Positions 3,837-28,544 of a stretch of 30,934 bases of DNA are shown here, piece after piece. The translations under genes were made by a program, and so were the position numbers. Below the pieces are notes generated by a model. It saw nothing but the letters and a program-made list of their open reading frames with translations. It made no database searches and was not told the DNA's origin. Within the stretch, counting starts at the first letter, position 1; each line of letters opens with the position of its first letter. This DNA comes from a virus: positions 1-30,934 of IMG/VR virus record IMGVR_UViG_3300020439_000044; one strand, given 5' to 3'.

Positions 3837-6800
3837 TATCTATTCCTATTATATACATTATTAGCTAACTCTACTGTTCTATTTACAAATGCATTAGCAT
3901 CAGGTCTATTGTTATAATATCCTGTTAATACCTTATCATAATCAATGTTATCTTGCATTAGTTGTACCCTGTATTCATCAGGTACTCTTGCATCCCATAA
4001 ATCCTGTCTAATATCTATTTCTTCACTATCATCTATTAACGCATCTTCAAACACTTCACCTTCTGATTGTCTGCGTAAATTATCTAAAGTAAAACTCCAT
4101 ATTGCATTACCTAATATTTCTGATGGTGACCTTTCTCCTGCTTCTTGTAGTATTTCTAATAATTCAGGTCCATAATCTTGCCAAAAAGTTTCTTCAACTA
4201 TTTGTTTTTCCCATTCTTCACCATTCAATAATATTTCATTTCTTTTTTTAAATACATTATGTAGTTCAGGAATGCCTTGCATAGCAGATACAATTAAATT
4301 ACCAATCTCGTATATTGCCCACACAGTTGCTGCTGTTGCTGCAACTCCACCAAGACCTACTGCACCTGCTGCTATTGCTGTTTTTTGTGCTTGTTGAAAT
4401 GCTTTGCTTATAAGTGTTTCACCTATGTCTATAGTTTTCCAAGCGTAACCTAATGTCTTACCTGTTTTAGTTTGTGCAAATGCTTTACCAAGTTGTCTTA
4501 ATGTTTTTTTATCAGGATTTAAATTTGTTGGAACTCTATCAGCATTAAATGGTACTCCATAAAATTGACCTGCATCTCTTGTTGAATATTGTGATAAAGA
4601 ATAATTTGAATATATACGTGGCAAATTATCATCATTAACTAATACTGTGTCGTAACTCTGTCTTATGTCATACTGCGTACCACTTTGCAATTCTTTATCT
4701 TGATAATTGATTACAGAATCACCAAAAGAATCTAAGTCAGGTATTATTCTTTTTAAATTACTTTCTACTACACCATTGTAAAAATCTACATCAGGTGCTA
4801 ACAATTCTATATAGTTTACTATTGCTGTATCAGGTAAATTAGAAAATTTTACTCCATCAAATTCTATGCCACGTAATACCATACCTTCTTGACCTCTAGT
4901 TATTTCTGCTACTCCATTTGTTCTGTTTGTAACATCTATATATAATGGCATTTCATCACCAGGTGTAGGAGGCAATTTAATTTGTAATCTTACTGCACCA
5001 TCTATATTTTTATCAACTAAATTAAAAAAATCAGATAATGTTTCATTTACATCTACTCTCATAATATCTAAATCTATTTGGTTATACAGTGGTTGTGGAG
5101 ATACATCTGTTGGCACTCTACGAACTTGTGTATCTTGCTGTTGACGTTCCATTTCTTCATCAATAAAATTACCTTGTTCAACAATTTCATCTATAGTTTT
5201 TGTTGTTTCATTGTATCTTAATATATCCCCTTCTCTTGTACCAAAAGATACAGTAGAATCACTAATAGTTCCATCAGTAATTCCCATACTATACGCTACT
5301 CTACCAACAGGATGCATCCTGCTATCAGACATAAATGAAAAATCTCTACCAGTTTGTGAAGGAAAAATGTCTATACCTTGTTCTTTAAACATTTTAACAA
5401 ATGCAACATTTATTATTGTTGTTTGTGTATTTCCAAATGATATATTAGAAGTAATATTATGCACCATACTATTAGTTGCACCCATTTTTGATTTAACTTC
5501 TATAGTTGTAAAATCTTTGTGTAATTTTATAGTTCCATCTGCATCTGTAGTTGTATAAATCATACCTGCTTCGTAATACTGTACAGGCATAACATCACCC
5601 CTACTGCTTTCTGTTCCTACAAATTCAATGTCTGCTGAAAGTAATACATTTTCATTTGACCTTGTGCCAAGTTGGTTTTTTATTGCCCATTCTAAATTTT
5701 TTACAAATAAATGTTTTGATTTATCTGATAATCTATTTCTACCTGTATCATATCCATGTGTAGTTTGCGTAAATATATTGTCAATTATGCCACGATTTTC
5801 TACTTCGTATAATTCTTCTAAAAGTTTTAATTGGTCATTACCACTTCTATAATTCATTACACGACCTGACCCCATATTATCTAACACATAAGAACCTTCA
5901 GGATAATAAGTTCCTGATGTTTCTTGCAAAAGCACTGAACCATCTTGTATATCATCAAAAGTTTGTTCTACACCAAAGTTTCTTATTCTTCGTTGTAATT
6001 GTCTTGAACCTTCTGCAGCAGCTCTATCTTCAGGTGTTTGCACAGTGTCAGGTGTTTGCACAGTGTCAGGTGTGTCTGTATCATCTACTTCAAATGAACC
6101 GACTTCTGCATAGTTTTCTATTCTTCTTCTTAAATATTCATTTAAAGAATCTGTATCATTTACATCTACATCTGCATCATCAGGTATATTTGAACCTAAT
6201 TCATTTATTACATCAGGTAAATATTTTATCCCCATATCTTCTAAAAAATTTGGTCTTACATTTACATCTGACATCATTAGTAAATTATTAAATATGTTTA
6301 GTTGTCCTGGATTTCCTGTAGATAAATCTAATAAAGAACCTGTACTTATAACAGGTTTACCATCTTTATTAGCTATTACTCCTACATCAAATCCCATTTC
6401 TGACAAACTAGCTTTGGTTATTCCTAAATCATCTGCAACTTCTTGTGGCACATCAATTATATTTATACCTGTAGCTTCAACAAATCCTTCTGTTCTAAAT
6501 AACAAATCCATAAGAATTTTTGGTTCATAGTTTTCTAACATTAACTGTGAAATAACGTTGTAATCTTGTTTTGGAAATATGAAACCATTTTGTGTTACAT
6601 TATTGTTGGAGTTAATAACAGATTCTACAAATGTTTCTTTCATTAATGTAGTAATTGCTGATTCATCCCATCTACCACCTAAAGCTATATTTAACATTTG
6701 TATATTTATTTGTTTTCTATATGCAGAATTATTAAGCATGTTACTGTGTCTGTCTATAAGTTTTGATAAAGCTATTAGTTGTTTATGTCTAGGTGATTTT

Positions 6801-8629
6801 GTAATATCTGTAAATTTTTGTTTAGTTGCCATACCTGAAGTTATTGATGGAGAACCCCATAAATAATCAATTTTTTCAATATTATATTTAAATTCTTTAT
6901 TTGCTAATTTAGCCATCCAACCATTTACTAATTCATTACTTTCATTAGGAAATCTAATCATAGAACTTTGCAATCCAGGTACTTCACCACCAGGATTTGC
7001 AGTAATTGCGTTTTCATTTTCAGTTATAAATTCACCTAATTGGTATATATCTGCAACATATTCATTAACAGGACTTTGTACTAAAATAATTCCATCAGCA
7101 TCAGCTACTGCTAATAAACCTCTAAACCAGTTAATTGCACTTCTTACAGAAAGTCCTTTTAATATTTTAACTTTATCTCCCATAGGATTTGGGTAATAAC
7201 CATTTGTAACTACTGGGTCAAAAGTAACAAAACTTGTTGCTATACCTGTTTTTTTATTATTTACAACATCAGTCACATCACCAATGCTATGACCATAATC
7301 TGCAGTAGTTTTATGGTCAGCTTCTGCAATATTAATAATATGACTAACACCATCAACATCCACGTATTCTAAAGCTATAAAATATCTTTGTTTTTTCATT
7401 AATGCTAAATATCTTTCACCATCAGATTTGTTTAATATTTTTTTAAAAAATGCACCCATACCATTTTTTTCTACTACTAAAGAATGTATAGTTGACCCAT
7501 GTCGTGATGAAGTTGAAGTATACCTTACATCTTTAGGTCCACCACCTAGAAACCTAAAAGACATAGAACCTACTACTCTATCTAATGCTGCTCTTACTTG
7601 TGGATTTCTATATATTCTTAAAGCATCTTCAAAATTTGTATGTGTACTTTTTGTAGTAGTAAACAATGGACCATTACTACCATCTGTATTTTTTAAAAAA
7701 TCTAATCTATTAGAATCAGCTAAACTGCTTTCATGTGCATTCATTAAATCTGCTAATTTTTTTTCAACTTCTGAAAAATCTTCAGGAAATATTATTCTTC
7801 GTGTACGTTGATTATTTTTGTAATCAAAATCAAAATCTTGATTAATCTTATATTGGTTTTCAGGTTGCAACATACCACTTTCGTTATCAAGAAAAAAATC
7901 ACTATTACTTCCTGCATCAAATAATAGATTTAATGTGTACATTTTTTCTTTGCAGAATTTTTGTAATACTGGTATTAATTCATCAAAGTCAACTAACATA
8001 TCACCTGAAGGTACTACTTCTTTTAATTCAATACTTGGATATAAAGCATCATCTAATTTAACTCTTATAAATACTTCATCTATAGCTTTTTGTATTCTTG
8101 CTTTTGCATCTTGTATGCTTGGATAATCTGTAGGATTAGTTTCTTGTAAATACTTTGCCATTTCATCTAGTTCTTCAGGAAATCTATTTAATCTAGCTGC
8201 TATATCTTCAGGTGTATCAACATTTGATTCTACAGCTTCTATAGCTTCATCTATCGCATCTGTAGAAGGTGCATCATCAGGAGATATATCATCAAAAGTA
8301 TTTTCTCTATACATATCTCGCATAGCATCATCACTGTATAATTGTTCTAAATTTTCAGATAAATTAGCAACAAAATTTGATGTAACTGATATGTTATTTT
8401 CTCTTAATGCACGAAATACTTTACCTGCTATATCTTGTCTATAAGCTAACGCAAAATTATTACTATCATAAGAACTTGCAGCGTTTACTACTGATTCTCT
8501 AATTGTTCTGTTTAATAAATCTAGGGTATCGCTATCTAAATCAGCAATACTACTATCAGTATTATTATTTATAAATCTTAATATACGCCTTTGAGTTCTT
8601 TGTGCAAAGTAATTTATAGATACAGGCAT
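3836..8629 (-). CDS. Giant virion protein (1597 aa), probable internal/ejected protein
   Basis: A 1597-aa open frame, Asn/Asp/Ile-rich with little recognisable domain sequence. A Pro/Thr/Asp-rich linker near residue 855 carries a duplicated DTVQTP hexapeptide. Residues ~1415-1450 form an Ala/Gly/Val-rich hydrophobic stretch (AIAAGAVGLGGVAATAATVW and on) long enough to cross a membrane, followed by a soluble helical tail. Size, one membrane-compatible segment and adjacency to a transglycosylase-like gene resemble the internal core or ejection proteins of podovirus-like phages. A tail-tip or tape-measure role is possible. The start has GGAG six bases upstream, inside the stop region of the small gene at 8633-8806. 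Confidence 0.55.
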   Translation of the reverse strand: MPVSINYFAQRTQRRILRFINNNTDSSIADLDSDTLDLLNRTIRESVVNAASSYDSNNFALAYRQDIAGKVFRALRENNISVTSNFVANLSENLEQLYSDDAMRDMYRENTFDDISPDDAPSTDAIDEAIEAVESNVDTPEDIAARLNRFPEELDEMAKYLQETNPTDYPSIQDAKARIQKAIDEVFIRVKLDDALYPSIELKEVVPSGDMLVDFDELIPVLQKFCKEKMYTLNLLFDAGSNSDFFLDNESGMLQPENQYKINQDFDFDYKNNQRTRRIIFPEDFSEVEKKLADLMNAHESSLADSNRLDFLKNTDGSNGPLFTTTKSTHTNFEDALRIYRNPQVRAALDRVVGSMSFRFLGGGPKDVRYTSTSSRHGSTIHSLVVEKNGMGAFFKKILNKSDGERYLALMKKQRYFIALEYVDVDGVSHIINIAEADHKTTADYGHSIGDVTDVVNNKKTGIATSFVTFDPVVTNGYYPNPMGDKVKILKGLSVRSAINWFRGLLAVADADGIILVQSPVNEYVADIYQLGEFITENENAITANPGGEVPGLQSSMIRFPNESNELVNGWMAKLANKEFKYNIEKIDYLWGSPSITSGMATKQKFTDITKSPRHKQLIALSKLIDRHSNMLNNSAYRKQINIQMLNIALGGRWDESAITTLMKETFVESVINSNNNVTQNGFIFPKQDYNVISQLMLENYEPKILMDLLFRTEGFVEATGINIIDVPQEVADDLGITKASLSEMGFDVGVIANKDGKPVISTGSLLDLSTGNPGQLNIFNNLLMMSDVNVRPNFLEDMGIKYLPDVINELGSNIPDDADVDVNDTDSLNEYLRRRIENYAEVGSFEVDDTDTPDTVQTPDTVQTPEDRAAAEGSRQLQRRIRNFGVEQTFDDIQDGSVLLQETSGTYYPEGSYVLDNMGSGRVMNYRSGNDQLKLLEELYEVENRGIIDNIFTQTTHGYDTGRNRLSDKSKHLFVKNLEWAIKNQLGTRSNENVLLSADIEFVGTESSRGDVMPVQYYEAGMIYTTTDADGTIKLHKDFTTIEVKSKMGATNSMVHNITSNISFGNTQTTIINVAFVKMFKEQGIDIFPSQTGRDFSFMSDSRMHPVGRVAYSMGITDGTISDSTVSFGTREGDILRYNETTKTIDEIVEQGNFIDEEMERQQQDTQVRRVPTDVSPQPLYNQIDLDIMRVDVNETLSDFFNLVDKNIDGAVRLQIKLPPTPGDEMPLYIDVTNRTNGVAEITRGQEGMVLRGIEFDGVKFSNLPDTAIVNYIELLAPDVDFYNGVVESNLKRIIPDLDSFGDSVINYQDKELQSGTQYDIRQSYDTVLVNDDNLPRIYSNYSLSQYSTRDAGQFYGVPFNADRVPTNLNPDKKTLRQLGKAFAQTKTGKTLGYAWKTIDIGETLISKAFQQAQKTAIAAGAVGLGGVAATAATVWAIYEIGNLIVSAMQGIPELHNVFKKRNEILLNGEEWEKQIVEETFWQDYGPELLEILQEAGERSPSEILGNAIWSFTLDNLRRQSEGEVFEDALIDDSEEIDIRQDLWDARVPDEYRVQLMQDNIDYDKVLTGYYNNRPDANAFVNRTVELANNVYNRNR
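6031..6073 (-). repeat. 18-bp tandem repeat inside the 1597-aa gene
   Basis: Two exact copies of an 18-bp unit (6031-6048 and 6049-6066) plus a partial third (6067-6073). It encodes a duplicated DTVQTP in a linker of the 1597-aa protein. The unit is in frame, so its copy number can change by slippage without breaking the gene. Confidence 0.85.
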
Positions 8630-10139: not shown

Positions 10140-11581
10140 TAAAAGTTCTCCTCAAATACCATAAAGTTACGTTTAAAATCTTGTGCTGCTGCAGTTCTAG
10201 CAAGTATCTCTTGACTTGCATCTATTCTACCTGCTTCTAAATCATCTATAATCTTTCCTAGTTCTGTTGTTACATCTATCTGTTGTAGTAATGGTTTACC
10301 TAGTTTTTCTCTAGCTTCTTCTGCAGAAGGTACTGATATACCAAAACCACCATATGTATATGGACCTATCTCTGTTGTATTGTCATAAGATGTAGATAAT
10401 CCAATAATGTCATTTAGTGATAACTTATTATCTTCTATCTCTGCTGCTCTAGCTGCTGCATCTTTCTGCAAGTTACCAAATATAGTTGCATATTTTTGAT
10501 AATCATTAGCTGTAGGATTTATACCACGTTCTATAAACAACTGGTCTATAGCAGACTTTACTTCTGCCTCTGTAGGTGGCACTACATCTGCTGCAAACTC
10601 TCTTTGCAAACTTTCTACAAATACATTTGTTTGTTCATCTACACCTTTTTTCCATTCCATATATGGTCTTAGTTGACCTAATATTGTATTTGCATTTCTA
10701 TCTACTAGATTTAATTCAGGAAACATAGCTATTGCATCATTAGCTTCTGTCATAAGTTGACCTATAAAATCTATTTCACCACCACGTAATGTAGGGTCAA
10801 CAACACCAGGAACAAAATTATAACTACCAATGTCTAATCCAAGACTTGATAATTCTTGTTGTATCTCAAATATTGCTTCCTGACTTAATCCTGAAAACAC
10901 TTCTGTTGCTGCACCAAGTCTAAAATGTGGTGATAATACTTTTCCATTTAATTTTTTAGTTTCACCTGTTCTAGGGTCTATGTATTGATTAGCAGCATTT
11001 AGTGCTACATTAGGACCTGAATAATAATCATTAGAACCAAATCTTGTTTCACCTGTTTCAGGGTCTGTACCTTTAGATGTTACTGGTGCTAAACCTTGTA
11101 TTTTAGGTTCATCAATACTGTATGTTCTTACATCAGTATCTTGTTCATTCCAATTAAATATAGTACTAGATATAGAGCTAATTAAATCTACATTAGCTAA
11201 AGAACTGTACGTTATGTTTTGTTCATTTGGTCCAGGCATACCAAACGTTGATTCTGTTTCTGATGCCTCTGTTTCTAAATAAGCAGTAAGAGCTGTAATG
11301 TATTCATCTAGTGATTCAGGTTCTAATAATTGTTGTCTATAGTCAAGAATATTATCTCCATAATTAAAACCTATAGCACCTACTCCAGGTAAAGCTAATA
11401 AGTAACTAAGTTTGTAATCTTTTGCTGATATTTCACCATCTTCTTTTTGTATACGTATAGGTATAAATATTCTTGTGTTTAATTCTTTTATAAACTCACT
11501 AAAACTAGCAGGATAATCTCCACTTTTATCTAAATCATTTAAATACTTGTCTATTTGTTTTACAGATTTTTCTGTACTCAT
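10139..11581 (-). CDS. Virion-cluster protein of unknown function (480 aa)
   Basis: A 480-aa soluble protein starting MSTEKSVKQIDKYLNDLDKS, not recognised. It is acidic, Asn/Thr/Ala-rich and mostly helical, with no membrane segment, Cys motif or catalytic signature. Its ATG overlaps the stop of the 2005-aa gene in an ATGA arrangement, and its own stop overlaps the start of the transglycosylase-like gene. This strict coupling suggests the three are made in fixed proportions and may form one virion substructure. A Gln/Pro-containing middle region (~150-210) with repeated PETGE/PRTGE-type turns resembles structural proteins, but this is weak evidence. Confidence 0.5.
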   Translation of the reverse strand: MSTEKSVKQIDKYLNDLDKSGDYPASFSEFIKELNTRIFIPIRIQKEDGEISAKDYKLSYLLALPGVGAIGFNYGDNILDYRQQLLEPESLDEYITALTAYLETEASETESTFGMPGPNEQNITYSSLANVDLISSISSTIFNWNEQDTDVRTYSIDEPKIQGLAPVTSKGTDPETGETRFGSNDYYSGPNVALNAANQYIDPRTGETKKLNGKVLSPHFRLGAATEVFSGLSQEAIFEIQQELSSLGLDIGSYNFVPGVVDPTLRGGEIDFIGQLMTEANDAIAMFPELNLVDRNANTILGQLRPYMEWKKGVDEQTNVFVESLQREFAADVVPPTEAEVKSAIDQLFIERGINPTANDYQKYATIFGNLQKDAAARAAEIEDNKLSLNDIIGLSTSYDNTTEIGPYTYGGFGISVPSAEEAREKLGKPLLQQIDVTTELGKIIDDLEAGRIDASQEILARTAAAQDFKRNFMVFEENF

Positions 11582-14500
11582 TTAATATACCTTCTATTAT
11601 CTAACTCTTTCCAAAAACTTGATAGATATATACTTATCCATTCAGTATCTTCGTACTGTAAAGCTAACTCTCTAGCATAAGCATCTAGTTCAGTTCTTAT
11701 ACTACTTATGTTACCACTTGTTCCTGCAAGTGTTGCTGCAGTTTTATTTGGTATTCCACCTGTTGGTATTGTAACACCTCTAAATGTACCACCATTTAAC
11801 ACAACATCTATAGCTCTGTCATACTCTTTTAAAAACTTTTGTAATGGTGGAAACGCAGGTGATTCTCTTAGTAATGGTTCATTCTTCCAATCTCTAAGCT
11901 CTTGTATAATCTGATACTTGTCTGCTTGTTCTACAGCATCACCTAATCTACCATATGCTATAACACCATACTCATCTTGTTTCTTTGCTTTGTATGATGA
12001 GTACATTTCGTTTCTAGCTTTAGTAGTTAGTGTCTTATCTGCATTTAATTCTTCTTTATAATTTTCTAATTCAAACTGTAACAATGACTGGTTTACTGCT
12101 CTTGCATATGCATTAGGGTCTAACACCTCACCACCTGCCATAAATGCAGGTAAAGAAAACTCATCATCTACTCTGTCAGGCATAAGATGTATTGCTGTAT
12201 ATGGTTTTCTTGCTAACAACTCTTTGTTTTCGTTTAAACTCCAAAACGCATACGAATCTTTTTTAACAGGAAATCTACCTTTTTTAACTGTAGAAGATTG
12301 CCTTAATGGTATTGGGTTCATACCAAATTTCTGTGTAAATTGTTGTGTTGTTAAATAATAATCAAACTGGTTAGCTTCTAACATTTGTTGATACTTTTGA
12401 CCTAATACTTGTATTGTCCACCATGCACCATTCTTATCTTTGACTTCGTATCTAGGTTGTATAGCAGTAGGAAACGCAGCTTGTGCAGCACCTCTAACTA
12501 ACCAGTGTACAGCTGCTGCTCTCTCTGCTTCTTGCATAGCAACTTTAATTGATTGTTCATCATCAGGTGTCCATTTACCTGCGTAGTAATACAATGTAAA
12601 TATATCCATAACACTTTTAGCATACGAAGCATTTATTTCTTCTGTAACTTCTTGTGTAAATGGTATTGCTTTGAAAAAACCTTTTGCCCAAGCAGGTAAT
12701 TCATCTATTGGATTAGGAGTTGTACCTGGTGCTTCAAAGTTACCTAATATAAAATTAGATATGAATTTAGGAACTGTAGCTATCTTTGTAAGAATTTTAA
12801 ATGGAAATGTCAGTATTGGACCAAAACCAGGAGAAAAACCATTTGCAGATATTAAGTTAAGTCCTTCTAAGAAACCATATGGTCTTACACGTACACCATC
12901 ATCTTCTAAGTTTTCTCCTAACAATCCTGTTTGCAGTGGTGCGAAACCAAACGCACCTGGTATTGCAGTAAGACCAAATGTCATCATATGCATAACATCT
13001 ACGTAATTAAATAACAATTCGCCTGTTACAGGGTCAGATGTAAAAAATGCATTATCTGTATCCCAAGGTTTTGCTTCTTTACCTCTATCAATACCTATAC
13101 GTGTTCTGTTAAATTTCTGTGGATTTTCTACAAGTAATTTACCCCAAGTCTTTATAACCTCTTGCCATATTTCAGGAAATGGTACATAAGATGCCATTAC
13201 ATCAGATAACACGTGTCTATCAGAACTAGCGTATAACAAGTTCTTTACTTCATCCATAGCTTTATATTTAAGTAATGTTTCTGCTTGTTCTAGTGTGACA
13301 ATACTATTTTCTTCTGCAGGTAACTTAGATAATCTAAGTATGTCATCATATAAATCACTACCATCTATCCAAGTTTTAGCACCTACAATAAATTCTTTTT
13401 TAACTTCTTCTGTCATAAAAGGTATAAGGTCTGTTGCTAATGTATAAAATGACCATCTAAACATAGGGTCACGATTTAAGTAATCTGATGGTTTTGCTAA
13501 TAAGATACTATAACCTGAACCTAAAGCATCATCTAATTTACTTAAAGCTGTATCTATAGGTTGTCCTGCAGGTGTAAGATATGGATTGTTGTTAAATGCC
13601 TGTACTCTTGGTCCTAAATCTAATTGTCTTATATCTTCATCAAACACTTTTTTAATTTTGTCATAAAACTCACCAAAGTATTTTTCTGTTTTAGCAGACA
13701 ATACAGAGTATTTTTGTGCTAACTCTAAGTAATCATCACCATCTATAAATCCACCATTAGCAATAAACTCTCTTACCTTTGCAGCACCTACAGATAAATC
13801 TACTTCGTAATCAGGAAAATTAATCTTACCACTGCTATCTATCAATAACTCTCTTGCTTGTTCTTCTGTTATTTCTTGTCCATCTCTTAATATTCTTCTT
13901 GTAGCATTACCTTGCAATCTACCTATTTCATATTCTGTACTTTTAAGATACTTTAATAAGTCATCACTGTTTTCTAATACAGAACGTATTTCAGGGTCAT
14001 CACTTCTTGCTATAAGTTCTTTTATGTATTTTTTACCTGATGTTGTATTACTAAAAAAATCAAATGCTTTATCTGCACCATCTCTAGCAACAATAACAAA
14101 CAAAGGGTCACCTGCTTTATTTATAATGTCGTGAATCCAACCACGCCAATATTGTGGATTTATTGTTCCATCAGGTTCGTATTTATCTACCATAATGTAA
14201 AAATCTTCTGCAGAACTAATTTGTTTACCTGTAGGTTTAAGTGCTTTTACTAATGATTGTTCTGACATAGTTTGTATGTAATGTTTGTCTGTATTAAAAA
14301 ATGAACCTGAAGGTGCAGCTTGTGCATATCCACCTTTTTTATCTATTATCTTTTTAGCTGTTTGAAAGTTTGCATTAAACAAATATTCCATTACGTTTTT
14401 TACTACAGGTGTATTTATATCTACATTATCTATACGTGGGTCAGCTTGTGCATATACACGCACTTCAAATACATCACCATCTTCTATATACCTAGCACTG

Positions 14501-17500
14501 TTTTTTATAGGGTTACTATCAGGTAATAAACTAAATGCTTCTTGTCTTATATATATTTTTGATTGATGTGATTTAACAGCAATACTTAATGCATTTTTTA
14601 ATGCTGTATCTGCTTCTGTTGCTGTGCTACCACTGTTTAGTTGTACAGTAACATCAAGTATTACAGAATTGTCTTTTACTTGTATAGACAATCCATGATT
14701 TAATTTTTTTAGTTGCATTTGTATAGATGGATTATTTGCATAGTTTTGTATTGCTTGTCTTAATTCTTCATTAGTTTCTACTTCTACTATTTGTTTATAT
14801 TTTTTATTAGGTATTACAGATATATTATTTTGCATTCCTGATAAATTAGCAAAAGGTCTTACTGTGTCACGTAACTCTAGTGAATTACCAAGATTACCAA
14901 CTGGGTTAACTTTTTGTGTTTTAAGTTGTTTTAGTTCACCAACTATTTCATCAAACGCAAAGTCTGTAGCATTATTACCATCAATAGCATACTGTAAAAA
15001 CGAATCACCTACTTGACCATTAACATTAGTGTTAAGTCGCATAACTTTCATAATCTGTTGTATGTCATCATACTTTAAAGTTTCTAAACCTTTTTGCATA
15101 TCTATGTTGCCTAGTAACTCTGCAGTTGTTTCTATCTCATCTTCATCTATACGTGAAGAAAGCAACTGTTCACCTAAGCTACTAACAAGTTGTACGTTTG
15201 TAGGGTCACCTTGTCTGAAATTAGATTTTAAACTAGCAAGTAATAATGGATGAGAAAATACATTAGGTCCACCATACATAGCAATACGTACTGCTTCTTC
15301 AGGTGGTACACGTAATGCTAATGCAGGTCGTAACATCCACATTGGTTTTAATGCACGTTGCATTATGTAATCAGAATAAATATATTCTAACCATGTAGTA
15401 GGTGCTAATGTTTTTTTCTTTTTAGCATAATTTGTTTTTAGTCCTCTAGTAGGAATTTTCATATATTGTAATATTTTTTCACCTAAATCTCTATTAGGGT
15501 CTGACCATACTTCTTTAACTATTTTTTTATTGAATCTACTATTACTAGGTCCTATTAATCTTCTAAAACTATTTAATGCTCTACCTAACTCTCTGTAATC
15601 TATAAGTGGTGTAAAGTTATCTGCAAACTGCCCCATAGAAAAAGCAGTAGGTACAGCTACATTTATGCCTTCTATAATTTCACCTGTTTCATCAACACTT
15701 TGTGGAACGTATTTATATTTCGTACCTGGAAATGCTACAGGTTTACCATCTTTGTCATAAAAATATTTTCTTTTTTCTGATATTTCATTATTAACAAAAT
15801 CTATTACAGCGTTAACCATATCTTCTTCACCTTGTAAATCAGGATTATCTTTTATAACTTTGTTTTGTATTCTTTTATTTACTGTCTTAACAACATCTAC
15901 AATGTCATCTTGTGTTTTAGCTGTAAGTAATTTACCTATGTAAAAATCTCTAGTCTTTTGATTTTCACCTAATGTAACCATAATGCTATCAATGTTTTCT
16001 ATAGTTTCACCTATGTAATTTATTGCAGCAAATCTACTAGGTGCTAAATCAAAATATCTTTTTACTTTTTGTGGTATTGCATTTTTTAACGAACCACCTA
16101 AACCAATTACACCTCTAAATGGGTCATCACTCATTTTGCCTAATAAAGCACCTATAGTATTTCTAAGTGGTGCAACATCTATAGATTGACCTGCAAACTT
16201 CTTAGCTAATTCATTTGCCATATCTGCAACAACTGATTGTCGCATAGGTAATTTAGTCAATGGTGTTTGTATTGCAGCTTCTGCTATCTCTTGTCCTACA
16301 AATGCACCTGTGTATGGTGCAACCATCAAATCAGATAAATCACCATGTTTAAGTAATGACAATACTATTTCACGCATAGATTGTTTGTCTTTTACTTGTG
16401 CTAATAGGTTTAATACTTTAGGGTCTACTTTTGATAACGTAGGTATGTCTTTAAGTCTTGATACAGAGTTGTTTTCTGTCAATGCATTTACAAACTTATC
16501 TCCCCATTTGCTATCCATAATCTGTTCAGCAGTTTTACCAAACGTTAATCTTCTAGCTTCTGCACCTTTTTTTGTAGGAGAAAATGTTTTTAATGCTCTT
16601 GTCATAAATGCAGCATCATCTACATACTGTGCTACTTCTGCTTTAGATACAATCTTTCTACCTGCAGTTTTAGCAGCACCACCATAACCTAGTAATAAGT
16701 TTATAGGGTCTGCACCTAATCTAAATGCACCATCAATAATCGTAGATGCTAGTGCATACTTAATATCACCTTCACGAGAAAACTGTGCAGCTACAACTCT
16801 ACCTGGTGATATAGGTATTCTCTCACCATACTTTGTTAAGTATGTATTTTCATACTCATCTCTTTCAAACTCCTCTGTAATAGGTCTACCATATACCTCT
16901 GCTGCAGCTTCATATGCTTCTGTAGGTGTTTTACCTAGTTTTATCTGTTTCACATACACATCAGTTTCTTCTAATGGTAATGAATTAGGTAAAAGACCCA
17001 CACCTAAGTTAAGTGGTCTACCTGCTTGTACCTCTCCTAAAGCTCTACGAAATTCGTTTTCTCCATATGCTTCTTTTGTTTCTTCATACTTATCGTTAAA
17101 CTCTTTGCCTAATGTAGCTTTACGTATATTTTCTGTAAGTTGTTCTCCAGGTACTAATCCTGCTAATGTGTTGCCAACTACAGCACCTGTAAGTGATGTA
17201 CCTGTTTCTTGTGCAGCAACAATAGATGATTTAAAGTTACGTGATATATTTTGAAACGCAGAATCCATAGCTAAGAAAGATAGTTGTGTGCCACGCTTAA
17301 AAAAATTGACTTGTGTATTTACTTTTGCACGTTGTTTTTTCTCCATAGCTTTTTCTTGTGTTTGTGCAAGTTTTAACATAGCATCATCATCTGCTTGTAA
17401 TCCTGACAATGCACCATAGACTACTAATCGTTTATCTAATGATGGATATGTTCTAGTAATATCTGTCATTGTCTTAGCTAAGTCAGGTGTAATAGCTCTT

Positions 17501-17595
17501 TCAAACGCAGCTATCTCTTGTAAGTTTTGTGATGTCTTAGCTGCTAATCCTTCTTTAGCTTGTGAAGGCAGATAGAAATTAGGTCTAAAATCCAT
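11578..17595 (-). CDS. Giant virion protein (2005 aa), probable internal/ejection protein
   Basis: The largest gene of the window at 2005 codons. The first ~120 residues are helical and charged, followed by stretches with moderately hydrophobic Gly/Ala-rich segments (e.g. near 140-155 and, late in the protein around 1560-1620, GLTAIPGAFGFAPLQTGLLG). I recognise no enzymatic domain; it lacks the heptad-only, low-complexity look of a siphovirus tape measure. Size and its place after the portal and near a transglycosylase fit a protein stored in the head and injected with DNA, comparable in size to T7 gp16 (about 1300 aa) but much longer. The start lies right after the stop of the small gene at 17597 with a weak AGGT upstream. 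A multidomain tape measure or a polyvalent-type injected protein are alternatives. Confidence 0.55.
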   Translation of the reverse strand: MDFRPNFYLPSQAKEGLAAKTSQNLQEIAAFERAITPDLAKTMTDITRTYPSLDKRLVVYGALSGLQADDDAMLKLAQTQEKAMEKKQRAKVNTQVNFFKRGTQLSFLAMDSAFQNISRNFKSSIVAAQETGTSLTGAVVGNTLAGLVPGEQLTENIRKATLGKEFNDKYEETKEAYGENEFRRALGEVQAGRPLNLGVGLLPNSLPLEETDVYVKQIKLGKTPTEAYEAAAEVYGRPITEEFERDEYENTYLTKYGERIPISPGRVVAAQFSREGDIKYALASTIIDGAFRLGADPINLLLGYGGAAKTAGRKIVSKAEVAQYVDDAAFMTRALKTFSPTKKGAEARRLTFGKTAEQIMDSKWGDKFVNALTENNSVSRLKDIPTLSKVDPKVLNLLAQVKDKQSMREIVLSLLKHGDLSDLMVAPYTGAFVGQEIAEAAIQTPLTKLPMRQSVVADMANELAKKFAGQSIDVAPLRNTIGALLGKMSDDPFRGVIGLGGSLKNAIPQKVKRYFDLAPSRFAAINYIGETIENIDSIMVTLGENQKTRDFYIGKLLTAKTQDDIVDVVKTVNKRIQNKVIKDNPDLQGEEDMVNAVIDFVNNEISEKRKYFYDKDGKPVAFPGTKYKYVPQSVDETGEIIEGINVAVPTAFSMGQFADNFTPLIDYRELGRALNSFRRLIGPSNSRFNKKIVKEVWSDPNRDLGEKILQYMKIPTRGLKTNYAKKKKTLAPTTWLEYIYSDYIMQRALKPMWMLRPALALRVPPEEAVRIAMYGGPNVFSHPLLLASLKSNFRQGDPTNVQLVSSLGEQLLSSRIDEDEIETTAELLGNIDMQKGLETLKYDDIQQIMKVMRLNTNVNGQVGDSFLQYAIDGNNATDFAFDEIVGELKQLKTQKVNPVGNLGNSLELRDTVRPFANLSGMQNNISVIPNKKYKQIVEVETNEELRQAIQNYANNPSIQMQLKKLNHGLSIQVKDNSVILDVTVQLNSGSTATEADTALKNALSIAVKSHQSKIYIRQEAFSLLPDSNPIKNSARYIEDGDVFEVRVYAQADPRIDNVDINTPVVKNVMEYLFNANFQTAKKIIDKKGGYAQAAPSGSFFNTDKHYIQTMSEQSLVKALKPTGKQISSAEDFYIMVDKYEPDGTINPQYWRGWIHDIINKAGDPLFVIVARDGADKAFDFFSNTTSGKKYIKELIARSDDPEIRSVLENSDDLLKYLKSTEYEIGRLQGNATRRILRDGQEITEEQARELLIDSSGKINFPDYEVDLSVGAAKVREFIANGGFIDGDDYLELAQKYSVLSAKTEKYFGEFYDKIKKVFDEDIRQLDLGPRVQAFNNNPYLTPAGQPIDTALSKLDDALGSGYSILLAKPSDYLNRDPMFRWSFYTLATDLIPFMTEEVKKEFIVGAKTWIDGSDLYDDILRLSKLPAEENSIVTLEQAETLLKYKAMDEVKNLLYASSDRHVLSDVMASYVPFPEIWQEVIKTWGKLLVENPQKFNRTRIGIDRGKEAKPWDTDNAFFTSDPVTGELLFNYVDVMHMMTFGLTAIPGAFGFAPLQTGLLGENLEDDGVRVRPYGFLEGLNLISANGFSPGFGPILTFPFKILTKIATVPKFISNFILGNFEAPGTTPNPIDELPAWAKGFFKAIPFTQEVTEEINASYAKSVMDIFTLYYYAGKWTPDDEQSIKVAMQEAERAAAVHWLVRGAAQAAFPTAIQPRYEVKDKNGAWWTIQVLGQKYQQMLEANQFDYYLTTQQFTQKFGMNPIPLRQSSTVKKGRFPVKKDSYAFWSLNENKELLARKPYTAIHLMPDRVDDEFSLPAFMAGGEVLDPNAYARAVNQSLLQFELENYKEELNADKTLTTKARNEMYSSYKAKKQDEYGVIAYGRLGDAVEQADKYQIIQELRDWKNEPLLRESPAFPPLQKFLKEYDRAIDVVLNGGTFRGVTIPTGGIPNKTAATLAGTSGNISSIRTELDAYARELALQYEDTEWISIYLSSFWKELDNRRYIK

Positions 17596-19968: not shown

Positions 19969-21897
19969 TTAACTCCAATTATCTAAATCCATACTACTAG
20001 GTTCGTACCCCTCAAAGCTAGGATTATAATCGTACCCTAACTCTGCAAAGCGTTCCTTTTGCATTCTTCTTATGGCTCTCATTGGAAACCAACTAGCCAT
20101 AACTATATCAGTCTTTGTGCCTACGCTCTTGCTTTTATTTTTAGCAGAACTAAAATACACCAACTGACTTGTATATAAGTTTACCTTCTCTTGTGCCTCA
20201 AAGCTAAGATATGGCAAAGAAATATTTTGTTCTTGAAACATTGGTCGCATAGCTGTCACACCATAGAGTGGGTCAAACTTGTTCTTAAATGTTTCGTGTC
20301 CTTCTAAAAATATACCATGTCCTGATGCAAACTCCCTAATACTTTTATCTTGTCGTATTGCTTTCTGAAAACCATTTTCTTCTATAACCCAGTGTGACAA
20401 GTTATACTTCATCCACCATTCTTTTATAATGTCTAATGCTTGTGGAATACCACCACCTAAATTGTTATTCATATCTACCATATGTAATTTATTTTCTATA
20501 GGTTCGTATGCCCACAAGAAAGCTGCTTGATAACCTGTAGATGCAGGGTCTAATCCTGCAATAAGTCTTGTACCATGTGGTATGTGTCCTATGTCACGTT
20601 TTTGGTCACGACACGCTTCTATCTCTACTCTGTCAAACAATGCAAGTCCATCAGGCATAGCAACGTTAAGATAAACCATTTCGTATATAGCTCTACCACC
20701 TGTAGTTTCTGCTGCACGTTTTCTATCCATTAACCATTTGTATGTACGTTTACCTGACCAAAGCATACAATCTACATGTTCATCTTCGTTCCAGTCAGGT
20801 AAGTTACAAGCTGTATCGTGTGCTTCTTCTACTGTTGTAGTCCAAGATTCGTTATCTAATAGGTGTGAATATAAATCATCATAGTGTTGCCTAGAACCAA
20901 TAACCACCATAGCTGTGTGTTCCTCTTTACGACTAGACAATGTTGTTGTCCACCAACTTCTTGTGTTTTCTCTTGATGATGGTTGCATAGTAGAGTTGTG
21001 GTCCTCAATGTCATCAGCAATAATTATGTCACAGTCACGAGATAGTATCTTACCACCACGACCAATACCAACCATTGTCGGTGACTTAATACCTGTAACT
21101 GTTCTAGTGCCTACAGTAAAACCATTTTGTGACCAAGACTTACCTGTACGTGATGTAGGTTTAAATTTTGCACCAGGTCCACATATTTCTTCTATAAGTA
21201 ATTCGTTACTTTCTAGTTGGTCAAGTACAGAACCTATTGCATTCTTTGCAATCTCTTCATTACCACCAACCCACAAAATACGTATGTTAGGATTTTTACA
21301 AATAAGCCACACAGCAAAATGTATTAACAAATCTGTTTTGCCATGTCTAGGTGGTGATAATATCATGTGCTGTCCACCATTGTCTATAGCATCCATAATT
21401 TGTTCTATCCACTGTTTGTGAAATTTAGGTGTTTCGTATGCTACACCTTGTTCTGTTTGAAAATATCTTTGTCTAAAATCATCAAAATCTACTAATGTTT
21501 TTTCTGCTACTTGTGGTAATGACCACTCATCTTGTTCTGCTTTTGTTTTTAAATCTTCTACATATGCAGAGTACGCCATAGATACTGCACCTTGTGTTGT
21601 GCCTAATACTTCTGCTACTTCTGTTATTGTAATTTTTTCTGTGTATATATCTGCAGCTAAACCTGATTCTACAATGTCGTTATAGACCTGACCTCTACGT
21701 GACTGTACATTAGTTTTTTTGCTAGGTATTTCAAGTACATCATCTTCTTGTGACCATTCTTTACCTGCTTTTCTAGCACGTTTTTTCTGCATATTAATTC
21801 TGTTGTAACAACGTTTACTACAGTATTTTTTTGCTCTAGGTGGAAGTGGTCTATGACAACCTGCTGCATAACAAAGTTTTTTATTTGTTGTATCCAT
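19969..21897 (-). CDS. terL: Terminase large subunit with N-terminal zinc finger and HTH
   Basis: The DNA-packaging motor ATPase/nuclease. With the ATG at 21897 (642 aa; AGAG four bases upstream) the order is as follows. A Cys4 zinc finger has C9, C14, C26 and C30. A helix-turn-helix of small-terminase or sigma-like type lies at ~88-110 (ITITEVAEVLGTTQGAVSMA). Walker A is SPPRHGKT (181-188). Walker B is CDIIIADDIED (289-299). The RNase H-like nuclease begins at GLDPASTG (D450), with later acidic motifs. A GTG three bases earlier (21900) is a possible start. The start overlaps a 31-aa zinc-ribbon frame. No separate small terminase gene is seen upstream, so the N-terminal Zn/HTH region may take over DNA recognition; that is inference. 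Confidence 0.9.
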   Translation of the reverse strand: MDTTNKKLCYAAGCHRPLPPRAKKYCSKRCYNRINMQKKRARKAGKEWSQEDDVLEIPSKKTNVQSRRGQVYNDIVESGLAADIYTEKITITEVAEVLGTTQGAVSMAYSAYVEDLKTKAEQDEWSLPQVAEKTLVDFDDFRQRYFQTEQGVAYETPKFHKQWIEQIMDAIDNGGQHMILSPPRHGKTDLLIHFAVWLICKNPNIRILWVGGNEEIAKNAIGSVLDQLESNELLIEEICGPGAKFKPTSRTGKSWSQNGFTVGTRTVTGIKSPTMVGIGRGGKILSRDCDIIIADDIEDHNSTMQPSSRENTRSWWTTTLSSRKEEHTAMVVIGSRQHYDDLYSHLLDNESWTTTVEEAHDTACNLPDWNEDEHVDCMLWSGKRTYKWLMDRKRAAETTGGRAIYEMVYLNVAMPDGLALFDRVEIEACRDQKRDIGHIPHGTRLIAGLDPASTGYQAAFLWAYEPIENKLHMVDMNNNLGGGIPQALDIIKEWWMKYNLSHWVIEENGFQKAIRQDKSIREFASGHGIFLEGHETFKNKFDPLYGVTAMRPMFQEQNISLPYLSFEAQEKVNLYTSQLVYFSSAKNKSKSVGTKTDIVMASWFPMRAIRRMQKERFAELGYDYNPSFEGYEPSSMDLDNWS

Positions 21898-21976
21898 CAC
21901 ACTCTTTGTTTTTGCACTTCATTTCATCCTTTGGTCTTAATACCACCCCACACTTAGGACATGGTATGTCTATCAA
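21881..21976 (-). CDS. 31-aa zinc-ribbon peptide overlapping terL start
   Basis: A frame of 31 codons beginning with TTG at 21976 and ending in TAA inside terL. The product (M)IDIPCPKCGVVLRP plus CKNKEC near the end holds two Cys pairs (C6/C9 and C21/C26), enough for a minimal zinc ribbon. It starts three bases before the stop of the 49-aa gene ends and overlaps terL by 17 bases, so it fills a gap in a densely coupled operon. The Shine-Dalgarno is weak (AAGAAA). Function unknown; nucleic-acid binding or a terminase accessory is plausible. Confidence 0.45.
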   Translation of the reverse strand: MIDIPCPKCGVVLRPKDEMKCKNKECDGYNK

Positions 21977-23383: not shown

Positions 23384-23511
23384 ATACTTAACAGCATATT
23401 TTTAGAGGGTGTACACATATATAAAGCCGCCCCCACATTTAACCCCCCTATGTAAAAGCCCACATAATTCCTGTGTTTTGCGACATAGACCTAACGCATT
23501 ATGTAGCACAT

Positions 23512-23559
23512 ACTATATGTTGTGTGTGTGTTTTGTACGCATACTACATGTAGTGTACC
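23512..23559. repeat. Two further copies of the ACTAYATNTAGT motif
   Basis: CATACTATATGTTGTGT and CATACTACATGTAGTGT, 31 bp apart, differ at two positions. The second contains the 12-bp perfect palindrome ACTACATGTAGT. A GT-rich run (TGTTGTGTGTGTG) lies between them. Confidence 0.5.
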
Positions 23560-23653
23560 CCTTTTGTTTTAATACTGGGGATAGTTAGTTAACTTACATC
23601 ATTGAAGGATTACCTGCTTGTAAAGTGTGAAGGATATACAAACAAACGAAGGA

Positions 23654-23687
23654 CAAAAAGAAAAGACACCTGCAATAAACAAGTGCC
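23654..23687 (-). terminator. Intrinsic terminator of the small minus-strand genes
   Basis: On the minus strand GGCACTTG-TTTATTG-CAGGTGTC forms an 8-bp stem with two G-U pairs (arms 23680-23687 and 23665-23672), followed at once by TTTTCTTTTTG. It lies 23 bases past the stop of the 102-aa gene, the expected place. Confidence 0.75.
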
Positions 23688-23709
23688 TTCCCTTCGGTTA
23701 GTTAGATGA

Positions 23710-24787: not shown

Positions 24788-24820
24788 TTACAGTTATGTT
24801 AATGTAAATTTAGAAAGGAA

Positions 24821-25009
24821 ATGATGAAAGGAACGCATAAGGTTGGAAACACTATCAATAGCAATAGTGATGTTAAATACCATATAAACAATGTAATTCC
24901 AGTTTGGTACGCTAACTTTCATCTTTCTTTCAAGCTACTTACACGCTGTAGCCCTTTACTTCATATACGTATGAATAGTGTAGGTAGCTTGAAGATATCG
25001 GCAGAATAG
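24821..25009 (+). CDS. Possible leader ORF overlapping structured RNA
   Basis: Tandem ATGs at 24821/24824 follow AGAAAGGA, a usable Shine-Dalgarno, and open a 62-codon frame ending in TAG at 25009. The first ~35 residues look ordinary, but the second half is simply the translation of the paired arms at 24931-24999. If translated, the ribosome would unwind those arms, as in an attenuator leader. It may equally be an incidental frame or a remnant. No known domain. Confidence 0.3.
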   Translation: MMKGTHKVGNTINSNSDVKYHINNVIPVWYANFHLSFKLLTRCSPLLHIRMNSVGSLKISAE

Positions 25010-25381
25010 TCTTAGATTAAGTTCGGACAACGCCTTGTACTTTATAGAAATATAAAGACTGCTAGCAGGTAAGCCCAAAACTTTGCAGGTGGGAAAGTAA
25101 GCTAGATATCTTCAAGCTATCTATAAACGATAGTAGATAATCCTGTAAAAACAGCTTGTGGTTGAAAATCCACGCAGGTATTTGAGCTACTTAGTGTGTT
25201 GCCTAAGTTAACAAGGTTATCCATAGGATAAAAAACACATTGTAGGTAGCTTGTAGCACATAGGTTATGTCTGCCTTGCAGTCAAGATTAAAGTTACGCC
25301 TGTGTGTTACAAGCTATCTAGTTAGTAAGAGTTCTTTTCAATGCCCTGTTTTGAACTACCGAAAGCTAGATAGTTTTTTTT
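24928..25381 (+). ncRNA. Large structured RNA with two tandem switch-like units
   Basis: No gene fits here, but pairing is extensive. Unit 1: 24928-24944 pairs with 24978-24994 (17 bp), or 24981-24999 pairs with 25105-25123 (19 bp, one G-U). Unit 2: 25185-25200 pairs with 25234-25251 (9+7 bp, two-base bulge), or 25243-25264 pairs with 25299-25320 (22 bp, three G-U). In both units the middle arm carries TAGGTAGCTTG and can pair with either neighbour. The third arm of unit 2 also forms the terminator stem (25311-25321 with 25366-25376). Internal hairpins include TTCATA-TACG-TATGAA, CTTTATA-GAAA-TATAAAG (25040-25057), CTGT-AAAA-ACAG and TTATCC-ATA-GGATAA. Either an attenuator leader for the operon at 25433 or a free ornate phage RNA (GOLLD/ROOL-like in size and setting). 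The 5' end is uncertain. Confidence 0.7.
25311..25381 (+). terminator. Intrinsic terminator ending the structured RNA
   Basis: AAGCTATCTAG (25311-25321) pairs with CTAGATAGTTT (25366-25376): 11 bp with one G-U. It encloses a 44-nt loop that has its own AGTTC/GAACT stem (25330-25334, 25353-25357). Eight T's run from 25374 to 25381. The first arm also belongs to the 22-bp helix of unit 2, so the two are mutually exclusive. Confidence 0.75.
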
Positions 25382-25401
25382 GTAGATATATATTTACAAT
25401 A

Positions 25402-25410
25402 TGCTACAAT
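25402..25410 (+). promoter_or_regulatory. Extended -10 promoter for plus-strand operon
   Basis: TGCTACAAT (TG-n-TACAAT, five of six consensus bases) lies 23 bases before the SGNH gene and just after the terminator. No clear -35. If active, the operon has its own promoter and need not depend on read-through from the structured RNA. Confidence 0.5.
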
Positions 25411-25432: not shown

Positions 25433-26215
25433 ATGTCTAAAGGAATAGATGATATAGACAACAGTTGGTTTGTTGATGAACAGTTTGACAATCGTGGAAT
25501 TGACAACGAAATATCACAACTGCAATTTAACAAGCCATACACGTTTAATCATAGAAAAGTAAATAACAAAGCTGATATAACTTTTATTGGCGATAGTGTT
25601 ATTGATTGCAAAGCATATACAGGAACAGGTAAAGGAACTGTAGAATACTTCGCAGAGTATCACGCAAACCCTACATACATGGCGAGAATAAACGACCAAA
25701 GTGTAGATGGATTTACTATCTATGATTGCATTGACAATGTAAGCAAAGTTGTTGGTAATAACGTTGTGATTAGTGCAGGTGGTAACGACTTACTAGCTAA
25801 GATGAACTTGCTAACTGTATCTGATGACAACAATATGACAATGGGATTGATGAACACAGAGTTAGACAAACTTATGTTCGCATACGAAACTATGTTGCAC
25901 CAACTACGCAAGAGAAACAGATACTTCTTATTGCTTACTTGTTATGATGGTAACTTAGCTTACAACCCACAACGTTTTGATGGTGTTGATAATGTTGCAC
26001 ACTCTATTGTTTCTATGTGGAACGACAGATTGTATAGATTAGCTAACGATTATCAAAACAGACACGACAACATTGGACAAACGTTTGATGTTCTTGACTT
26101 ACGCAACTTTATGGGAACTACTTGTTATTACAACGAGATAGAGCCAAACAAACAAGGTGCGAAACGTATTGCAAAGAACATTAGCAAACGACTACAACAT
26201 AGAGGTGTATTGTAA
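25433..26215 (+). CDS. SGNH/GDSL-fold hydrolase-like protein
   Basis: A 260-aa protein with SGNH-hydrolase blocks in order: block I ITFIGDSVID with nucleophile Ser55; a middle Gly region; block III VVISAGGNDLL with Asn118; and a C-terminal block V. SGNH enzymes are esterases or lipases acting on ester or acyl groups of lipids, polysaccharides or peptidoglycan. In block V the usual D-x-x-H-P is replaced by N-E-I-E-P (234-238), so the expected catalytic Asp and His are absent. It may be inactive, use other residues, or bind rather than cleave. There is no signal peptide. AAAGGA lies four bases before the ATG. It heads an operon of early-type genes, an odd place for a structural hydrolase. Confidence 0.65.
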   Translation: MSKGIDDIDNSWFVDEQFDNRGIDNEISQLQFNKPYTFNHRKVNNKADITFIGDSVIDCKAYTGTGKGTVEYFAEYHANPTYMARINDQSVDGFTIYDCIDNVSKVVGNNVVISAGGNDLLAKMNLLTVSDDNNMTMGLMNTELDKLMFAYETMLHQLRKRNRYFLLLTCYDGNLAYNPQRFDGVDNVAHSIVSMWNDRLYRLANDYQNRHDNIGQTFDVLDLRNFMGTTCYYNEIEPNKQGAKRIAKNISKRLQHRGVL

Positions 26216-27451: not shown

Positions 27452-27648
27452 TGCAGGATAACTGGAAAAGATTAGCACAAGCACTGCTTGATGAGGAAGA
27501 TTACCTTAACAAGCAGACACGTGCATTTAGAAAAACAAGATTAGCAACTATTAAAATGATGAGAAATGAATTGTCAATACAAGAGATTGCTAAGTTACTT
27601 AAACTTTCAAGACAGAGAGTTTATAAGATAATTGAGAAAGGGGAGTAA
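27451..27648 (+). CDS. Small HTH protein (65 aa)
   Basis: 65 residues. The C-terminal half LSIQEIAKLLKLSRQRVYKI (41-60) is a clear helix-turn-helix of the sigma-70 region 4/resolvase type (S-x-x-E-I-A-x-x-L-x-L-S-x-x-R-V-Y). The N-terminal part is a charged helix that may dimerise. ATG and stop overlap the neighbours by one base. It probably regulates phage transcription or assists replication; the length is too short for a sigma factor. Confidence 0.65.
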   Translation: MQDNWKRLAQALLDEEDYLNKQTRAFRKTRLATIKMMRNELSIQEIAKLLKLSRQRVYKIIEKGE

Positions 27649-28544
27649 TGCCTAATTTTAATTTAGATAATTACGAAACAGTAGAAGATAGACTAAAAGT
27701 TTTTTGGAAAGAAAATCCAAAAGCAAGAATTAATACAGAGATTGTGCATATGACTGATGATGGAACTTGCGTAACTGTGAGAGCAGAGATATATAAAATG
27801 GAAGTAGATGCAAGACCAGTTACTACAGGTATAGCACAAGAAACTAAAGGGCAAGGTGGCTTTGCTAACAAAGATGCATGGGTAGAGAACTGTGAAACAT
27901 CTGCTATTGGTAGAGCTTTAGCTAACTGGATATATCAAGGTAGTAATAAAGCAAGACCTAGTAGAGAGGAAATGTCTAAGGTAGGTAACCAAGATGATAG
28001 AGTTAAGGTAGAGAAAAAGAGAGTGCAAAGACCTACTAAGGAACAGAAAGAAGCTATGAACAAAGTTGTTGATGAAATGGTTGCAGAGCCAAAGACAAAG
28101 AACAATGCATCACAACTTAAAGCACTGATGTCGGCAACTGTATCTGATGCAGAAAAATTAAAAGAGTATCAGAGAGATGCTTATGTTGAATGTGTAAGCG
28201 AACTTAAACTGCCCGAAGAAGTAGAAGATTGGGATAACGAACAGATGACTACGTTTCTTGATGTATTCCATAAACTTGTAGAGAAAGATAAAGGTTTAGG
28301 TGACCTTAACGAAGTCTTTGTAACAGAAGATATTACTGACAAAGGGGGTGATGACATGGGAGATGAGTGGAAAAGCAATCCTGCTACCGAAGCACAACTT
28401 AAATGGTGTAAGGATATAGTCGCTAAAGCTACTGACAAGAACATTGATGGACTTGCAGAACTAAAAGCACTATACAATGGTGGCGATATAAATGGCGAAA
28501 CTGCTAGTAAAATCATATCTAACTGGAACGATAAGGTTAAGTAA
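27648..28544 (+). CDS. ssDNA-binding/annealing-like protein
   Basis: A 298-aa protein. The N-terminal ~110 residues start MPNFNLDNYETVEDRLKVFW and contain the beta-rich segment EIVHMTDDGTCVTVRAEIY and then VENCETSAIGRALANWIYQG (79-98) followed by ARPSREEM. The E-N-x-E-T-S-A-x-G-R-A-L-A block is one I associate with actinophage proteins annotated as ssDNA-binding or Erf/Sak-like annealing proteins. A charged linker follows, then a C-terminal domain with PATEAQLKWCKDIV (~244-257). It would coat or anneal single strands in recombination or replication. Alternatives are a replication accessory of unknown type. Confidence 0.6.
   Translation: MPNFNLDNYETVEDRLKVFWKENPKARINTEIVHMTDDGTCVTVRAEIYKMEVDARPVTTGIAQETKGQGGFANKDAWVENCETSAIGRALANWIYQGSNKARPSREEMSKVGNQDDRVKVEKKRVQRPTKEQKEAMNKVVDEMVAEPKTKNNASQLKALMSATVSDAEKLKEYQRDAYVECVSELKLPEEVEDWDNEQMTTFLDVFHKLVEKDKGLGDLNEVFVTEDITDKGGDDMGDEWKSNPATEAQLKWCKDIVAKATDKNIDGLAELKALYNGGDINGETASKIISNWNDKVK

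Follow-up and report, generated by a model that had tools for sequence, protein, structure and literature searches.

An intergenic region on the plus strand of a virus record from IMG/VR (identifier IMGVR_UViG_3300020439_000044; the stretch analysed, positions 1 to 30,934, is referred to here as the window) carries sense and antisense repeats between positions 24928 and 25381. A first-pass annotation of this DNA had described them as a tandem, structured RNA that might work as a duplicated attenuator. We find that the repeat structure is real, that the element is larger than was described, and that similar arrays are present in many phage contigs of IMG/VR. The best explanation of the element as a whole, which stands on sequence comparison and which we hold with moderate confidence, is that of a modular noncoding RNA array of an uncultured aquatic phage family. 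The unit of the array consists of an arm (TAGGTAGCTTGTAGCACATA), a loop, which we call the cassette, and a second arm (TGTGTGTTACAAGCTATCTA), the arms pairing over about 20 bp. That this is the anatomy of the arrays and that their cassettes are shuffled appears highly probable, and it is the exchange of cassettes on constant stems, not visible from a single sequence, that is the main feature of the element.

The arrays were retrieved with a 16-nt probe from the middle arm of the window, which matched at least 119 stretches in IMG/VR. Nearly all of the matches in non-coding DNA extend into TAGGTAGCTTGTAGCACATA, a loop and TGTGTGTTACAAGCTATCTA, the probe covering only part of the left arm; matches within genes (for example, in loci L014, L016 and L030) were left out as apparent chance matches. 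The probe and further scans together yielded 267 distinct units from phage contigs. In 163 of the 267, all 18 of 18 arm positions pair on the plus strand, but only 16 do so on the other strand, because conserved G-U pairs turn into A-C there; judged from these G-U pairs, the plus strand is the RNA. This set had been filtered on pairing, and an independent test of the stem was made on 179 units selected by their 11-nt cores alone. The next six positions outward of the cores pair in 98-100% of these units, and five of the six beat every shuffle, the third, which is mostly G-U, being the one that does not. Exchanges of pairs in the stem include CACA/TGTG, CCTA/TAGG, AGGTAT/GTACTT and AAGATA/TATCTT. 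Thus, in homologues from IMG/VR, the collection of which for covariation had been advised earlier, the constant stem covaries and is, on this evidence, an RNA helix. The arms are about 20 nt long, the loops mostly 30-120 nt and the units mostly 60-180 nt; neighbouring arms alternate between sense and antisense along an array, and the number of units varies from none (L262) to several.

The loops closed by these stems sort into 125 families, of which 66 are singletons. Unrelated flanks on both sides are found in 197 of 234 pairs of loops with at least 80% identity, and unrelated loops in 74 of 85 pairs of units whose flanks are homologous on both sides. Within the window clade, upstream sequence is common to seven aligned phages, and six of the seven also share the last sense arm, the terminator and a promoter-like site after the terminator. 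Despite these shared flanks the cassettes differ among the window, L001, L002, L004, L006 and L007. For example, L002 has upstream DNA 97.7% identical and a terminase 99% identical to those of the window, and carries different cassettes. A filled and an empty site of one unit are seen at the same place on comparing L266 with L267 and L268, and the same cassette is found 5' of unrelated genes. On these comparisons, cassettes and spacer modules are gained, lost and swapped as units, both between positions and between phages, and we lean towards homologous recombination through the conserved arms as the means by which cassettes would be exchanged.

All of these data are metagenome contigs in which the arms are repeated, and assembly chimeras joined between arms might be thought to create the apparent shuffling. 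However, with arms of only about 20 nt and units of the lengths given above, single reads usually span units. Moreover, of 198 exact arrangements, 34 are present at two or more loci, in most cases on a different contig from another metagenome, and assembly error is therefore unlikely; we regard this explanation as barely credible. The precise gain of a unit and the swapping of cassettes would also suit mobile or site-specifically recombining DNA, similar to integrons or miniature inverted-repeat transposable elements, with the arms as DNA recombination sites and the RNA structure as a by-product. Several observations make such an origin very improbable. The G-U pairs render the arms perfect only as one-strand RNA; a tyrosine integrase (PF00589) is found in none of 28 array-bearing records, which may be incomplete; cassettes travel without the standard arms too; and inverted cassettes were not found, the apparent matches being palindromic units counted twice.

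The best-sampled cassettes and spacer modules, to judge from paired changes, hold covarying structures of their own. The spacer and terminator module (the CCCUGUU module; consensus AGUARGAG-stem-GCCCUGUU-stem-ACYGAAAG) has double changes at 10 of 15 pairs and a covariation score of 0.408, as against 0.201 when shuffled. Its positions R15 and Y58 covary as well, in a manner that we read as possibly that of an internal loop of the sarcin-ricin type. Some relatives that lack the standard arms (L288, L262, L261 and L266-L268) keep this module in the same position; of these, L262 is a minimal form with a TATAAT-like promoter, one module hairpin and a terminator. Among the cassettes, family F0 has compensatory changes at six of eight outer pairs, and family F1 shows double changes in 12 pairs (score 0.385, against 0.145). 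In F1, invariant GGU:ACC pairs cross a short helix, two pairs of which change in concert, so that a pseudoknot is probable. F1 is closed by unrelated stems, such as GGAGAGAG/CTCTCTCC in L305 and TTACAACGAA/TTCGTTGTAA in L157, and the F1 cassette is therefore independent of the standard arms. Hairpins resembling a tRNA T-arm occur four times in cassettes, against 0.5 expected. One such hairpin (GTAGGTTCAAATCCTAC in L155) is seen in cassette family F20 (L155, about 3225-3330; L110, about 3650-3790), where ARAGORN calls no tRNA.

These modules bear on two further explanations. The stems, of about 20 bp, are close in length to an RNase III substrate, and array ends lie frequently just 5' of genes; the stems could then be RNase III sites or mRNA protectors with incidental loops. 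Loops that are conserved, covary and move among unrelated flanks and stems are not expected of such processing or stability elements, which we consider distinctly improbable. A large, ornate structural RNA similar to GOLLD and ROOL, perhaps oligomeric via the sense and antisense cores and with the cassettes as variable peripheral domains, would account for a long, phage-borne RNA with many covarying modules, including the probable bulged-G type loop and pseudoknot. It is nevertheless rather improbable, as no Rfam family matches the arrays, the number of units falls to none in L262 and rises to several elsewhere, and, apart from the arms and the CCCUGUU module, no global conserved core was found.

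In the window, a 486-nt stretch folds with a z-score of -4.0, none of 100 shuffles folding equally well, and the units are repeated, in agreement with the tandem, structured RNA of the first-pass annotation. Three inverted repeats are present, pairing 24929-24944 with 24978-24993 (94% paired), 24981-24999 with 25105-25123 (95%) and 25243-25264 with 25299-25320 (86%, the remainder G-U). The antisense core TAGGTAGCTTG occurs twice as reported, at 24981 and 25243; with up to one mismatch and on both strands there are six matches to it against 0.66 expected, a number reached in none of 100 shuffles. Four sense cores had been listed, of which those at 24931, 25113 and 25310 are exact and the fourth, at 25183 (TGAGCTACTTA), is two mismatches away. 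The predicted 11-bp terminator stem (AAGCTATCTAG/CTAGATAGTTT) is present and leads into a T8 tract (25374-25381), and it is missed by a simple terminator scan because its loop is too long.

The element reaches upstream to about 24810, and all of its parts lie on the plus strand. Directly 5' of the RNA is a putative promoter (TATGTTAAT; 24795-24809), extended -10-like by its resemblance to the consensus and found at the same place in seven of seven aligned clade members. An extra structured 5' cassette (24823-24923), closed by GATGAAAG/CTTTCATC, belongs to family F5, which is found within standard arms in L015, L128 and L129 and is missing at this place from L001 and L006. The first sense arm, S0 (24929-24945), forms an inverted repeat of 16-17 bp with positions 24978-24993 of A1 (24978-24999), the antisense or middle arm of unit 1, whose predicted partner during transcription is either S0 or S1. 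The unit 1 cassette (25000-25104) clusters in family F7, which has five members (L139, L206, L088, L081 and the window), and the unit is closed by the sense arm S1 (25105-25123), which can form 19 bp with A1. A spacer module (25124-25240), related to a spacer in L130, contains a T-arm-like hairpin (25158-25173) and the degenerate sense arm (25183-25193). It is followed by A2 (25241-25262), the middle arm of unit 2, which carries the second antisense core, by the unit 2 cassette of family F10 (25263-25300; also in L181, L186 and L100) and by the sense arm S2 (25301-25320), which would pair with A2 over about 20-22 bp and is predicted to double as the 5' arm of the terminator. The terminator (25313-25381) combines a CCCUGUU module hairpin (25313-25374) with the T8 tract, and scores 56.7 bits with covariance model R1, the training set of which includes the window sequence. 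A putative promoter of the next gene (TATGCTACAAT; 25400-25410), likewise recognized by resemblance to the consensus, is conserved in the clade.

The alternative pairing of the middle arm, upstream or downstream, follows from the inverted repeats of the window, and the sharing of this arm is retained in L288 and L261 despite replaced arm sequence, these being few independent cases. In L288, for example, AGTAGACATCT is the partner of AGATGTCTATT, and a portion of AGTAGACATCT pairs with CTAGATGT as well. In predicted folding during transcription, S0:A1 gives way to A1:S1 and, at the end, A2:S2 to the terminator. The overlap between the last sense arm and the terminator, which had also been proposed, holds for the window and seven relatives (L001, L004, L006, L007, L024, L031 and L221), that is, eight of the clade. 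It is lost in L063, L126 and L040, where the terminator stands on its own compensated stem with no arm in common; L184 has no terminator at the corresponding place. A cis-regulatory leader would explain much of this, the cassettes being sensors of a tandem attenuator or riboswitch-like element and the arms and terminator forming the expression platform of the downstream gene. The shared S2/terminator arm, the predicted switch, the survival of arm sharing through sequence replacement and the position of array ends, 62 of 159 of which are no more than 30 nt away from a start codon that has a ribosome-binding site, are all in its favour. However, the terminator is free of arms in the three relatives named above, the putative promoter lies 3' of the terminator, one and the same cassette is found 5' of unrelated genes, and cassettes differ between sister phages that share a downstream gene. 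We therefore consider a leader unlikely as an account of the arrays. Many arrays elsewhere stop directly 5' of a ribosome-binding site, without a terminator. Because of these array ends, the independent terminator stems and the promoter after the terminator, attenuation is a possible local use and not the identity of the element; the duplicated attenuator thus survives in its alternative pairing and fails as a general explanation.

In the modular array that we propose instead, the RNA is, from sequence comparison, a chain of hairpins in which each A...S helix of about 20 bp presents a structured cassette as its loop. The alternating arms let each middle arm pair upstream or downstream; an upstream hairpin would form first in transcription and then yield to the longer helix downstream. 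In the window clade, the array would be transcribed by itself, as an RNA of about 570 nt that starts near 24810 and stops at the terminator (25381), and the terminal hairpin would set read-through into the downstream genes. For the cassettes the main role would be in trans: they would serve as a set of RNA effectors or decoys directed at host factors that change, and their fast turnover would be explained in this way. Structured and conserved cassettes that are exchanged fast between near-identical genomes resemble the loci of an arms race, and by this analogy a role as trans-acting effectors may be suggested, with considerable doubt. We tentatively, and with slightly less hesitation, suggest a phage RNA-domain shuffling system, in which the stems would be the platform of exchange and a pool of small structured RNA effectors, in at least 125 families, would be traded among phages, perhaps as the RNA counterpart of integron cassettes or anti-defence islands. 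Several points weigh against this reading. The trans role is argued from turnover alone, and the reading as a whole is a comparative one. F1 shows no variation in its three pseudoknot pairs, and the nearness of array ends to start codons fits leaders as well. A promoter motif is not enriched before arrays in general (35 of 177, against a background of 16%). Also, the loci were retrieved through their arms, and the constancy of the arms is in part one of ascertainment.

Searches against known RNAs and genomes agree with the earlier remark that the element was not recognised as a known class. Rfam 15 covariance models, including those of GOLLD, ROOL, HEARO and OLE, give no match at gathering score in the window and 11 array-rich loci (130,547 bases); weak matches to yjdF, a small nucleolar RNA and a microRNA are far below gathering scores and were rejected as identities. 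The 19-nt arm has no match in cellular genomes (one genome each of 84,980 species), and no real relative was found among named phages and plasmids, a 42-nt match in Marine virus AG-345-E08 being without arms. Antisense targeting of the phages' own genes is unsupported by 13-mers of coding sequences (161 antisense, against 141 ± 16 shuffled), and an excess of sense 13-mers near start codons is probably due to units that lie next to genes.

The array-bearing phages form a family by their terminase, of which 40 of 50 records have a clear homologue, 52-99% identical to that of the window (19969-21900, minus strand); two further matches were too weak to be counted. The array lies about 3-6 kb beyond the terminase in the records compared. 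The window terminase has at least 456 relatives in IMG/VR, and no cultivated member of the family that it defines was found. Among named terminases, those of Streptomyces phages come nearest, at about 24% identity, and L138 and L149 (records G029 and G030), which have arrays and lack this terminase, encode WhiB, an actinobacterial regulator; for these two reasons our guess is that the hosts are actinobacteria.

Elsewhere in the window, the product of the gene directly 3' of the array (25433-26215, plus strand) is similar to GDSL/SGNH hydrolases, at a score under the Pfam cut-off; relatives with 61-93% identity occur in 11 IMG/VR loci. A 298-aa protein (27648-28544, plus strand; phrog_11717, function unassigned in PHROG) is encoded beside a small helix-turn-helix protein; from its ETSAIGRALA stretch it could be a single-strand annealing protein, and a recombination annotation finds no support in Pfam, NCBIfam or PDB. 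Two very long leftward open reading frames (3836-8629 and 11578-17595, minus strand), beside the portal-position and terminase genes, encode 1597 and 2005 aa, probably virion proteins, the former with no NCBIfam match. At another intergenic place, 23500-23560, the sequence TATGTAGCACATACTATATGTTGTGTGTGTGTT is similar to the inner portion of the arms of the array (TAGCACATA ... TGTGTGTTA), and a minus-strand, terminator-like hairpin of 17 bp is seen at 23657-23695.

Phages commonly exchange protein genes and protein domains. Small folded RNA domains swapped as cassettes on constant stems are unrecorded in Rfam and in the literature searched (open-licence papers), where neither a description of such an array nor RNA-domain exchange of this rate and scale was found. 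Should the cassettes be effectors, at least 125 unknown RNA folds would be catalogued by the arrays, within a phage family that has at least 456 relatives in IMG/VR, and the recognisable arms, which delimit each fold, make these folds easy to collect and test. The arrays also raise the question of what selection gives near-identical phages wholly different RNA cassettes at one locus.

Among known systems, integrons hold gene cassettes with attC sites, moved by a tyrosine recombinase. The arrays are like them in that a shared pool of cassettes is traded between constant elements, and differ in that their cassettes are RNA domains without genes, the PF00589 integrase was absent from the 28 records, and the arms are perfect only as RNA. 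The arrays have mutually exclusive helices in common with attenuators of the 1:2, 2:3, 3:4 type, and part of the window clade also has a terminator with a shared arm; unlike in attenuators, terminator sharing is not conserved, the number of units varies and the cassettes between the arms are swapped. The extended start-associated sequences (ESAS) of Cluster K mycobacteriophages are imperfect inverted repeats of about 17 bp with spacers mostly of 4-13 bp and a 13-bp start-associated repeat, for which the authors found an RNA hairpin little supported (PMC3203893). Inverted repeats, a variable spacer, a position upstream of early-type genes and possibly actinophage carriers are common to both, whereas the arrays have arms of about 20 nt, a covarying stem, and structured, exchanged loops mostly of 30-120 nt, outside the spacer range of ESAS. 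TIGR-Tas systems (PMC12045711) combine a Tas protein with a tandem interspaced guide RNA array, from which the unit described here would appear to differ in anatomy. GOLLD, ROOL and OLE are large structured noncoding RNAs, the first two of which occur in phages and prophages, and GOLLD has one conserved and one variable part (PMC12286853). The arrays resemble them as large, ornate phage RNAs; none of the 34 array loci scanned by ARAGORN holds a tRNA gene, there is no match to these RNAs in sequence or structure, and the arrays differ from them in their exchangeable cassettes on constant stems and their varying number of units.
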